From the NCBI GenBank assembly GCA_937958695.1, contig CALGNK010000008.1, forward strand, positions 1-44,231: a stretch of 44,231 bases of DNA. Direction: 5' to 3'. This stretch comes from an uncultured bacterium (GTDB lineage: Bacteria; DUMJ01). Positions 2,080 through 42,465 of the stretch are shown piece by piece. Position 1 is the stretch's first letter, and every line of letters starts with the position of its first letter. The notes below the pieces were generated by a model that made no database searches, was not told the DNA's origin, and worked only from the letters and a program-made list of their open reading frames with translations. Both the position numbers and the translations under genes were made by a program.

Positions 2080-2257
2080 ATAAACCCTGCCATGTGCGAG
2101 TTGCGCAAGACGTGTTCCGAGCCAACACTCACACGTGGCGTGCCTAACTCCAAGGGTGGATTAGAGGCTTCGAAAGAAGCTTCATGAAGCCTTTGGGAGG
2201 GCACAAAAGTTGTTTCCGGGGTTCGGGAACAAAGCGCATACGGCATGGCGGGGTTTT
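2080..2257 (+). ncRNA. ssrS: 6S RNA
   Basis: About 178 nt closed by a terminal helix: AAACCCTGCCATG (from 2082) pairs with CATGGCGGGGTTT ending at 2256-2257. The 5' side contains GAGCC-A-A then CACGTGGCGTGCC, as in the conserved left arm of 6S RNA. The 3' side contains GGGTTCGGGAACAAAGCG and CGGCATGGCGGGG, matching the right arm. A distal hairpin is formed by AGGCTTC/GAAGCCT. 6S RNA mimics an open promoter and sequesters sigma-70-type RNA polymerase. The SD of the next gene starts directly after the terminal helix, so read-through could make one transcript with the rarA cluster. A link of 6S RNA genes with rarA is, as I recall, known in Gram-positive genomes. Confidence 0.85.
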
Positions 2258-2269
2258 AAGGAGATTTTT

Positions 2270-16916: not shown

Positions 16917-16946
16917 CTTTACTAGAGATAAATATAGAGGCCTTAA

Positions 16947-17115
16947 GCCTTCGGGGACGGGTGAGAAGCTTAAAAGGCTTCAATTCCCTACCGGCGGTAA
17001 AGCCCGCGAGCCTCTTAAGAGGCTGAACTGGTGAAATTCCAGTGCCGACGGTATAGTCCGGATGGGAGAAGGTGTTTTTTATTGGAATAATAAGCCCCGA
17101 AGGTTTTCGGGGCTT
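16947..17115 (+). promoter_or_regulatory. FMN riboswitch (RFN element) with switching hairpin
   Basis: All RFN signatures are present: CTTCGGGGACGGGTG, ACCGGCGGTAAAGCCCGCGA, TGGTGAAATTCCAG and GCCGACGGTATAGTCCGGAT. P1 is GCCTTC (16947-16952) with GAAGGT (17068-17073). Downstream, AAGCCCCGAA (17092-17101) pairs with TTCGGGGCTT (17106-17115) in a strong hairpin shortly before the ribU SD. CCCCGAAGG (17095-17103) is also an exact complement of CCTTCGGGG (16948-16956) in the aptamer, giving a ready two-state switch. FMN binding should repress ribU. Confidence 0.95.
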
Positions 17116-38939: not shown

Positions 38940-39019
38940 AAAATAAAGCTCCTACTAGAATTTCTCCTAGTAGGAGCTATCAGCCTTACTTAAGGCAATC
39001 AGGCGAGCTCCATCGCCCT
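38940..39019 (-). promoter_or_regulatory. Fluoride riboswitch (crcB motif) with terminator
   Basis: The minus-strand RNA reads GGGCGATGGAGCTCGCC (39018 down), a hairpin GCC-TTAAGTAA-GGC, then TGATAGCTCCTACT, the crcB-motif layout. GGAGCT (39006-39011) pairs with AGCTCC to make the ligand-dependent pseudoknot. The same AGCTCCTACTAG (38967-38978) pairs with CTAGTAGGAGCT (38947-38958) in an intrinsic terminator followed by TTATTTTTAT. Fluoride binding should therefore block termination and turn the downstream genes on. Confidence 0.9.
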
Positions 39020-39025
39020 AAGAAA

Positions 39026-39054
39026 ATTATAATATTCTTTTATAGAAAATTCAA
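39026..39054 (-). promoter_or_regulatory. Promoter of the fluoride riboswitch operon
   Basis: On the minus strand, TTGAAT (39049-39054), 17 bases and TATAAT (39026-39031). The start is predicted near 39019, exactly at the aptamer's 5' end. Confidence 0.8.
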
Positions 39055-40331: not shown

Positions 40332-40653
40332 TTTACATCACCTCGTCCCTATATTTCAGTCATCCCAATATTTAAAATCTCAGTTAGTCATAGTATTTAT
40401 TATACCAGAAAGATAATCTTTTCCAATTTCTTCTTCCATCTAAAGATGATAGATCTTAATACCCCATAAGAAACTTAGGCTGGTAGTCTAGGCTACTAAG
40501 GGAAACCTGCTAGTTAGATATTTTCGGATTAGAGTACTCTTATCTTGAATATTCTGTAAGAAGGTCGATATTTATCTCTAATCGTTTCTATGTTAGAATT
40601 TTATCCAGAGCCTTAAGTGTTGGTAATGTTTATAAATTTTTGGAGAAATTAGT
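40332..40653. other. Gene-free region holding repeat copy 1
   Basis: There is no supported gene. It holds the 45-base repeat (40468-40512) and, at 40587-40598, ATGTTAGAATTT, a possible TGn-type -10 for the MNT gene at 40654. Confidence 0.4.
40468..40512 (+). repeat. 45-base structured repeat, copy 1
   Basis: AAGAAACTTAGG... to ...AAACCTGCTA, 44 of 45 bases identical to 41407-41451. It can fold: GTAG pairs with CTAC around a TCTAGG loop, and AGG with CCT outside. The two copies are in the same orientation and lie on either side of the second MNT/HEPN pair. Confidence 0.85.
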
Positions 40654-40950
40654 ATGATGTCTCTTGAGGAGATAAAAGGTATACTTGAAAAACATAAAGA
40701 GGAGATTAGAGAAAAATACGGAGTAGTAATAATTGGTATATTTGGTTCTTATGTAAGAGGTGAGCAGAAAGAGACAAGTGATATTGACATTTTAGTTGAG
40801 CTTGAAAAGCCTATCGGTTTTAAATACTTTGAATTGTGGGATGAACTTGAGAAGATATTGGGCTTACCGGTAGATATGCTTACTATAAAGGCGGTAAAAC
40901 AAAAGCCGTTACTATGGGAAAGTATAAAAGAGGATCTAATTTATGTCTAG
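40654..40950 (+). CDS. MNT-type nucleotidyltransferase (MntA-like antitoxin)
   Basis: A 98-residue minimal nucleotidyltransferase. The catalytic motif is canonical: GS-YVRGEQKETS-DID, i.e. GSX10DXD. The third Asp is expected in 'LPVDMLTI'. It should AMPylate and inactivate the HEPN partner encoded next, whose start overlaps it by 8 bases. The SD is TGGAGA. Confidence 0.9.
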   Translation: MMSLEEIKGILEKHKEEIREKYGVVIIGIFGSYVRGEQKETSDIDILVELEKPIGFKYFELWDELEKILGLPVDMLTIKAVKQKPLLWESIKEDLIYV

Positions 40951-41272
40951 ACGAAACTGGAAGCTATTCATCCTTGATATGTTGAATTGTATTGAAAAGA
41001 TTGAGAACTATACCTTAGATCTTTCATATGAGGATTTCATAAAAGATGAGAAAACAAAGGATGCAGTTATTAGAAACCTTGAAGTTTTAGGAGAAGCAGC
41101 TAATCAGGTCCCTAAAAATATACGAGAAAGTTATAAGGATATCCCTTGGCAACAAATTATAAGCATAAGAAATCGTTCACTTCATGGTTACTTTATTATT
41201 GATTATGATATTGTTTGGGGCATAGTAAATGAAGAGTTATATAACTTGAAAATAAAAATTAAAAAATCCTAA
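40943..41272 (+). CDS. HEPN-domain HepT-like toxin (DUF86)
   Basis: A 109-residue helical HEPN protein, likely an RNase. The RX4HXY motif is seen as RNRSLHGY, preceded by the DUF86 signature 'NLEVLGEAANQVP'. It is a different subtype from the toxin at 1538 (shorter, with the GEAA motif). It is paired with the overlapping MNT gene. Confidence 0.9.
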   Translation: MSRRNWKLFILDMLNCIEKIENYTLDLSYEDFIKDEKTKDAVIRNLEVLGEAANQVPKNIRESYKDIPWQQIISIRNRSLHGYFIIDYDIVWGIVNEELYNLKIKIKKS

Positions 41273-41316: not shown

Positions 41317-41361
41317 ATACCCCCTATGGGTATTGACAGTATTATATAAGGGGAGTATTAT
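41317..41361 (+). promoter_or_regulatory. Consensus promoter with inverted repeat
   Basis: TTGACA (41333-41338), 17 bases and TATTAT (41356-41361). ATACCC-CCTAT-GGGTAT (41317-41333) is a perfect inverted repeat touching the -35 and could be an operator. Confidence 0.75.
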
Positions 41362-41365
41362 ATAA

Positions 41366-41570
41366 GTGCCGTAGGTTTCTGAGGGGTCTAGAAGACCTTA
41401 AACTCAAAGAAACTTAGGTTGGTAGTCTAGGCTACTAAGGGAAACCTGCTAAAGTTCTAGAAGTTATTCCAGAATTTAGTAAGGAGCCCAAAGGTAGATG
41501 GGCAAACCGCTTAAGGGACTTTGGGGCAGGTTTTCAGAGATTCGTTAGGGACCTACGGCTTATTGTTTTT
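41366..41570 (+). ncRNA. Candidate structured leader RNA, class not recognised
   Basis: About 205 nt closed by GCCGTAGGT (41368-41376) and ACCTACGGC (41551-41559), followed by TTATTGTTTTT. Inside are GGTCT/AGACC, the 45-base repeat hairpin, TTCTAGAA/TTCCAGAA, GCCC/GGGC and AAACC/GGTTT helices. It starts at a consensus promoter and is followed by a terminator and an SD-led gene, the layout of a riboswitch or other leader RNA. I found no match to T-box, cobalamin, lysine, c-di-AMP, tmRNA, RNase P or SRP signatures. Confidence 0.55.
41407..41451 (+). repeat. 45-base structured repeat, copy 2
   Basis: It differs from copy 1 at one base (AGGTT for AGGCT). The change lets AGGTT pair fully with AACCT, so this copy folds better. 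It lies within the candidate leader RNA. Confidence 0.85.
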
Positions 41571-41617
41571 AACTCTTCGGAAAGTGAAAGATCTCCAATA
41601 ATACTCGCTGATTTTTC

Positions 41618-41650
41618 TAGGGGGTCCATTAGGGACCTCCTAAATTTTTT
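41618..41650 (+). terminator. Intrinsic terminator before the ADP-ribosylglycohydrolase remnant
   Basis: TAGGGGGTCC pairs with GGACCTCCTA (one G-U), followed by AATTTTTT. It ends 12 bases before the SD GAAGGAGG, so it either ends the leader RNA or works as an attenuator. Confidence 0.8.
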
Positions 41651-41669
41651 GTAATAGAAGGAGGAAGAC

Positions 41670-42465
41670 ATGGATAGACTATTTGACAGGATCTATGGAT
41701 GTCTGGTTGGTGCTTTTGTTGGTTCTGCGTGATGAAGTATTGTATCGGGTTGTTGCAAGCGGAATACATCCTGCCTATGCGGGGTTATACACAGACTTTT
41801 TGGGAATAATCTCTTTTGCTAGGTCTTGTCATCCTATAGGTCTTATAAATGCCTGTAATCCAGAAGAGGCTTATAGAGATGTCTGGGATGTAGGAAGATT
41901 ATATCAGCCATTACATGGGGGAGGACTAGACTGGGCAGCTGTTGTTGCCTGTAGTATAGCCTATGCCATAAGACCTGATGCTACAGTTGATGGTGTTATT
42001 GATACTGCATTGAAATATGCTCCTAGGGATGGAAGATATAGGATAGAAAGGGCAATAGAGTTGGCAAAAGAAAGTAAAGATGCATTTGAACTCAGAGAAA
42101 AGTTTGATCCGATATATTCTGGTAAAGGCATAAGGTATAGCTTTAGTTGGGGTGAAGAGGTAGTTCCAAAAGGATTAGCGATATTTTATGTAACAAAGGG
42201 TAATTTAAAAGATGCCATTATAGCTGGGGTTAACTTTGGCAGAGATACAGACTGCTGTACCGCTATAGGCGCTGGTATAGCCGGGGCATTTTCAGGGGCT
42301 TCGGGTGTGCCTAGTGAATGGATAGAGCAAGTAGATAAGGCTACTAAGGAAAATGACTATACAGTATCCCAATTGACAATAAGAGAAAATGCTGAAGCTA
42401 TCTATAATGCCCTTATGAATGAAAAGAAGAAGTTGGAGTCTTATATAAGACTCTTAGAGAGTTAA
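41670..42465 (+). pseudogene. ADP-ribosylglycohydrolase family gene, broken
   Basis: A good SD and ATG 41670 give 'MDRLFDRIYGCLVGAFVGSA', a proper family N-terminus, but TGA follows at 41730. The family sequence resumes one base out of frame at 41731 with 'DEVLYRVVASGIHPAYAGLY' and runs to 42465, with 'HPIGLINACNP', 'GGGLDWAA' and 'GRDTDC' intact. The segment in between, with the N-terminal Mg-binding acidic motif of the family, is gone. An internal deletion with frameshift is the simplest reading. A shorter product from 41683 would lack the catalytic half. Confidence 0.8.

Follow-up and report, generated by a model that had tools for sequence, protein, structure and literature searches.

A dispersed, genus-restricted candidate small RNA with a rod-shaped fold and a putative CsoR-family operator

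The window, a 44,231-nucleotide stretch of DNA from an uncultured bacterium, carries near its end a short unit composed of a putative operator, a promoter and a structured RNA. The operator is a pseudopalindrome (ATACCCCCTATGGGTAT, positions 41317-41333) containing the inverted repeat ATACCC..GGGTAT, and the -35 box begins at its last base. The promoter (41333-41361, + strand) matches the consensus at 11 of 12 positions, with TTGACA (41333-41338) and TATTAT (41356-41361) separated by 17 bp; the consensus promoter and inverted repeat of the original prediction are therefore both present. The RNA itself, about 200 nt long (41366-41570, + strand), is closed by a 9-bp basal stem that pairs GCCGTAGGT (41368-41376) with ACCTACGGC (41551-41559). 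This stem is followed by a U-rich tract (TTATTGTTTTT, 41560-41570, + strand), which is kept in the copies described below, is the point at which homology between them stops, and is likely to be the 3' end. In the spacer between the two promoter boxes, all copies keep a G tract followed by GTAT or an ATAC-like sequence (41350-41358, GGGGAGTAT in the window); this motif is perhaps a second, weaker repressor half-site.

The window copy lies among a nucleotidyltransferase/HepT pair, a decayed RNA fragment and an ADP-ribosylglycohydrolase (ADPRGH) pseudogene, a neighbourhood that looks like a mobile-DNA graveyard. The fragment (40451-40512, + strand) was recognized by DNA identity as the middle part of the same RNA, being 98% identical to the window copy over 45 nt and 89% identical to copy C5 over 62 nt. 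Nucleotidyltransferase/HepT-type toxin-antitoxin pairs or their remnants were seen near both the window copy and copy C5 (window 40654-41272; L014:4148-4363; L090:426-1276), and an intact relative of the remnant near C5 is found elsewhere in one of the congeneric genomes (G002).

The window RNA folds computationally into one unbranched rod of -88.9 kcal/mol, in agreement with the nested helices and perfect 9-base-pair closing stem noted earlier. Shuffled versions of the sequence reach only -55.8 +/- 4.5 kcal/mol (z = -7.3), and none of 200 shuffles was as stable. The internal loops of the rod comprise a few nucleotides each, without a large central bubble.

Neither the window copy nor the other copies matched an Rfam family at the gathering level, and when the threshold was relaxed to E values of up to 10 the window copy gave only chance-level eukaryotic matches. 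The element thus matches no known class in a covariance search of Rfam families, as had been proposed. It also had no match in collections of phage, plasmid and viral sequences. We found eight full copies of the unit, four of them in the genome of the window (G000) and two in each of two congeners (G001 and G002). The copies in the window's own genome, located by a DNA search, are 90-93% identical and comprise the window copy, C5:41324-41579, C45:633-888 and C7:27170-27411, the last with its operator cut by a contig end; those of the congeners lie on G001:C154 (twice), G002:C40 and G002:C287. Two truncated copies were found in addition, one in G001 (G1c, on C51) and one on contig CALLBR010000042.1 of another metagenome-assembled genome (L028). 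A covariance model built from the family detected the RNA in three congeneric genomes only, and in none of the 383 others among the 386 genomes searched; a pattern scan of genome contigs likewise returned only the two congeners and L028. The RNA on L028 matches copy C7 of the window's genome over the part that is present, and the model has no match in the rest of the L028 assembly, so that the true host of this contig is uncertain; it may be mis-binned, or a plasmid.

Alignment of the eight full copies allowed us to examine how the structure has been kept. Standard pairs occupy 97.9% of the paired cells, and seven pairs are changed on both sides, compared with 2.9 +/- 1.0 in shuffled alignments (none of 500 reached seven) and one or two in slid controls. 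The covarying pairs that were to be sought in homologues are thus present, with the limit that the eight copies are closely related and the independent events are therefore few. Among the paired cells 99 are G-U and 3 are A-C; exchange between Watson-Crick and G-U pairing occurs at 18 pairs, and between Watson-Crick and A-C at 3. The + strand of every copy folds with a z of between -6.6 and -10.4, and the opposite strand folds more weakly in each. As far as aligned copies can tell, the compensatory and wobble changes identify this as a conserved RNA encoded on the + strand. In comparisons between species, identity is 100% in the -35 box, 82% in both the -10 box and the operator, and 84% in the RNA, as against 57% in the spacer; boxes and structure being kept while the spacer drifts suggests selection on both transcription and RNA structure.

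Similarity among the aligned copies spans the operator through the U-tract and is lost directly beyond these limits. Their neighbours, which are unrelated, include an MFS transporter, an integrase, rep genes, a DeoR-family regulator and a glycoside hydrolase (identified solely by its sequence). Precise unit boundaries at unrelated sites are what is expected of a mobile cassette. One unit in G002 lies at the 3' end of the MFS gene, which departs from its G001 orthologue in the final codons, and the integrase gene is 45 bp from copy G2b. No target-site duplication was obvious at the copy junctions on inspection by eye, and no transposase or integrase is common to the RNA copies among the neighbours seen. 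Repeats upstream of C5 and L028 proved to be other repeated sequence. The one at L028 resembles an insertion-sequence end: a 38-nt repeat (TGAAGTTCGGACATCTGGATTCAGATAAAAATACCCCC, L028:7517-7554) recurs at about ten places in G000, its last bases are the start of the L028 RNA operator, and it is probably such an end.

Five of the ten copies, full and truncated, lie near replicons with iterons and rep genes. Copy G1a comes directly after an array of 22-bp iterons (L017:6530-6718, 8.6 copies). The array adjoins an RPA-type rep gene, on whose far side G1b is located. Another RPA gene also has a 22-bp iteron array next to it, and copy G2a is found about 1.4 kb beyond that array. Such RPA genes are rare, with four matches in three genomes. 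The truncated copies G1c and L028 sit on related replicons with 21-bp iterons, whose rep-like proteins (with no Pfam match) are 53% identical and whose primase-helicases are 74% identical. Four full copies have no adjoining replicon, and none was seen at the four G000 copies in the stretches read. The two truncated copies (G1c at L020:1355-1485, and L028 at its contig end, L028:7669) are interrupted at nearly the same position, close to GTAG-N6-CTAC, which in three copies is a perfect 14-bp palindrome (GTAGCCTAGGCTAC); this position is a possible recombination site.

The operator fits the published type 2 operator of the CsoR family (consensus ATATACCCCTNAGGGGTATAT, TAC-N9-GTA; PMC3902906) in having the TAC-N9-GTA inverted repeat and two C/G tracts, and is present in every RNA copy whose 5' side is available; in the RNA operators of G001 and G002 one base of the right half deviates. 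With a strict pattern, G000 yielded three sites without mismatch, namely that of the window RNA, C19:22904 and C19:44670, the last inside an open reading frame; the RNA operators of C5 and C45 score two mismatches under this pattern because their centre differs. When the centre was loosened, the RNA operators of C5 and C45 and sites at G001:C35 and G002:C273 all matched without mismatch. Zero-mismatch matches were also seen at G001:C118 and G000:C45:37153. The sites at C19:22904, G001:C35 and G002:C273 each lie at a promoter, only a few bases upstream of where the coding sequence of a 78-aa protein with a PF02583 match begins, so that in all three species the same putative operator stands at the promoter of this CsoR-family gene. 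The protein has Cys at positions 29 and 58, an RLxR motif, and a Tyr where InrS has its third ligand His. With PF02583, two conserved Cys and no third metal-ligand His, it has the features by which it would be classed as CstR-like. Thioredoxin-like, thioredoxin and thioredoxin reductase genes (the reductase named by its sequence) follow on its 3' side. A second CsoR-family protein, adjoining a copA-like ATPase, keeps the His, and its locus has no such operator.

Since the predicted operator is common to the RNA and the 78-aa gene and is absent from the copA-linked locus, the RNA is predicted to belong to the regulon of the CstR-like protein. Because the operator and the -35 box share one base, a bound repressor should block the promoter. 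By analogy with CstR (PMC5480029), we infer that the 78-aa regulator senses persulfides or thiol oxidation; a CsoR relative of a thermophile does not lose DNA binding with NaHS (PMC10318464), and specificity can thus differ within the family.

We propose that window positions 41317-41570 are a self-contained small-RNA gene, one of several dispersed copies of an undescribed, genus-restricted family. The proposed RNA is free-standing and would travel as a mobile cassette; the CstR-like protein would repress it, reactive sulfur or thiol stress would induce it, and its action is probably protein-mediated. We give this scheme as a whole, with its repressor, inducer and protein partner, a probability of about 60%; the data show the location, the structure and the operator site of the RNA, and its expression, inducer and function are what we infer. 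The repressor would cover the -35 box and keep the RNA off; exposure to persulfides or polysulfides, or the oxidation of thiols, would remove it, whereupon the RNA and the repressor/thioredoxin operon would be turned on together. Transcription would stop at the U-tract that follows the closing basal stem. Since hardly any of the RNA is single-stranded, it most likely acts in trans through a bound protein and not as an antisense RNA, although this protein-mediated action is the weakest step of the scheme. Plasmid-like elements, and what remains of them after integration, would carry the cassette as it spreads and persists. More tentatively, a plasmid-linked, multi-copy rod RNA tied to the host's CsoR/CstR sensor of reactive sulfur and thiols might let mobile elements exploit a redox repressor of their host to turn on a structured RNA under sulfur stress. 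The use of LexA by prophages offers a parallel.

The position of the RNA upstream of an ADPRGH frame, with a terminator-like hairpin before the Shine-Dalgarno (SD) sequence, had led to its being read as a riboswitch or attenuator of that gene that senses ADP-ribose, NAD or a nucleoside. The hairpin (41618-41642, + strand; 10 pairs, followed by a T run) and the SD at about 41656-41664 are real, but they belong to the leader of the ADPRGH gene and lie outside the RNA unit. Two ADPRGH genes in G001 with intact starts keep the window-type hairpin, SD and start region and have no RNA unit upstream, where there is instead a reading frame like the end of a solute-binding protein; the RNA, which was to be sought upstream of intact ADPRGH genes, is thus absent from both. 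Given these RNA-free genes, the hairpin at 41618 is part of the ADPRGH leader and the RNA unit an unrelated neighbour. The counterpart hairpins in G001 have no T run, which is found in the window only. Across species the sequence of this hairpin varies and its pairing looks kept (window 41618-41642; L099 and L100, corresponding to G001:C146 and G001:C7); it is perhaps an intercistronic hairpin, placed in the mRNA after a gene for a solute-binding protein. The ADPRGH frame of the window (41670-42465, + strand) is a pseudogene: compared with the G001 frame it stops after about 20 codons and has lost part of its N-terminal region, and the PF03747 match of the surviving open reading frame begins at profile position 104. 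The other seven full copies of the RNA have unrelated genes as neighbours and no constant orientation (some converge with the neighbouring gene), the conserved unit has its own U-tract end, and no known riboswitch class was matched. We consequently give the riboswitch reading next to no credence. What survives is the fallback of the original prediction, an independent small RNA ending at 41570, since the copied unit runs from the operator to that very U-tract.

Other explanations concern what is being copied. The exact boundaries and unrelated flanks, the insertion-like junction at the end of the MFS gene, the integrase gene beside G2b and the near-coincident break of G1c and L028 by GTAG-N6-CTAC would also suit a mobile DNA hairpin, a MITE-like cassette or integrase attachment site whose transcript is incidental and has no RNA function. 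Wobble-preserving changes and folding that favours the + strand RNA speak against this, as does the conservation of the -35 box, the operator halves and the U-tract while the spacer drifts; the copies have no recombinase gene in common among those seen, and the break in L028 is a contig end, for which reasons the attachment site forms only part of this explanation. We regard it as unlikely. The association with iterons raises a different possibility, that the RNA helps to maintain iteron plasmids, through copy control, priming or stability, and that chromosomal copies are remnants of integrated plasmids. The placement of G1a directly after its iterons, the flanking of one rep gene by G1a and G1b, the replicons near G2a, G1c and L028 and the rarity of RPA genes all fit such a role, but distance and orientation relative to rep vary, the same RNA accompanies two types of replicon, and the four G000 copies keep structure and promoter without such a replicon in the stretches read, which makes this role rather improbable. 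The unbranched rod shape, the length of about 200 nt and the possession of a promoter also recall 6S RNA, which binds RNA polymerase. A separate 6S RNA is already present in the window (2081-2258, + strand, at or above the Rfam gathering score), the rod gave no 6S match even at E up to 10, and its internal loops of a few nucleotides leave no large central bubble, so that a 6S-like function is very doubtful. A CsrA sponge was rejected, the GGA in an internal loop not being conserved, and no reverse transcriptase of the kind that a retron-type RNA would call for was present among the annotated neighbours.

The CstR-repressed, free-standing small RNA that we favour resembles several known systems in part. 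As in the CsoR type 2 modules of S. lividans (CsoR) and S. aureus (CstR), a TAC-N9-GTA site with C/G tracts overlaps the promoter, and the PF02583 repressor gene has the same site at its own promoter; here, unlike in those modules, a multi-copy structured RNA is a predicted target, and no gene for a copper exporter, rhodanese or sulfide:quinone oxidoreductase was among the targets seen. It shares with 6S RNA (RF00013) the rod and the length, and differs from it in being multi-copy, in its predicted operator control, in having no large central bubble and in its lack of a match to the model. Stress-regulated multi-copy small RNAs of bacteria are likewise encoded several times over between genes, in nearly identical form and each time behind a separate promoter; the present RNA differs in being a rod without a free seed region, in its dispersal as a cassette on plasmid-like elements, and in its predicted CsoR-type control. 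We found no precedent for a CsoR/CstR-controlled small RNA in the open-access literature searched. A stress-regulated small RNA is of a known kind and the present combination a new variant. If the proposal is correct, the RNA would represent a new family of structured RNAs and, by the same literature, the first non-coding RNA in a CsoR/CstR-type regulon. It comes with a predicted inducer, sulfane sulfur or thiol oxidants, its relatives named here are metagenome assemblies, and its link with iteron-plasmid elements makes its role directly testable.

Two further structured RNAs in the window scored at or above the Rfam gathering level, an FMN riboswitch (16943-17077, + strand) and a fluoride riboswitch (38964-39026, - strand).
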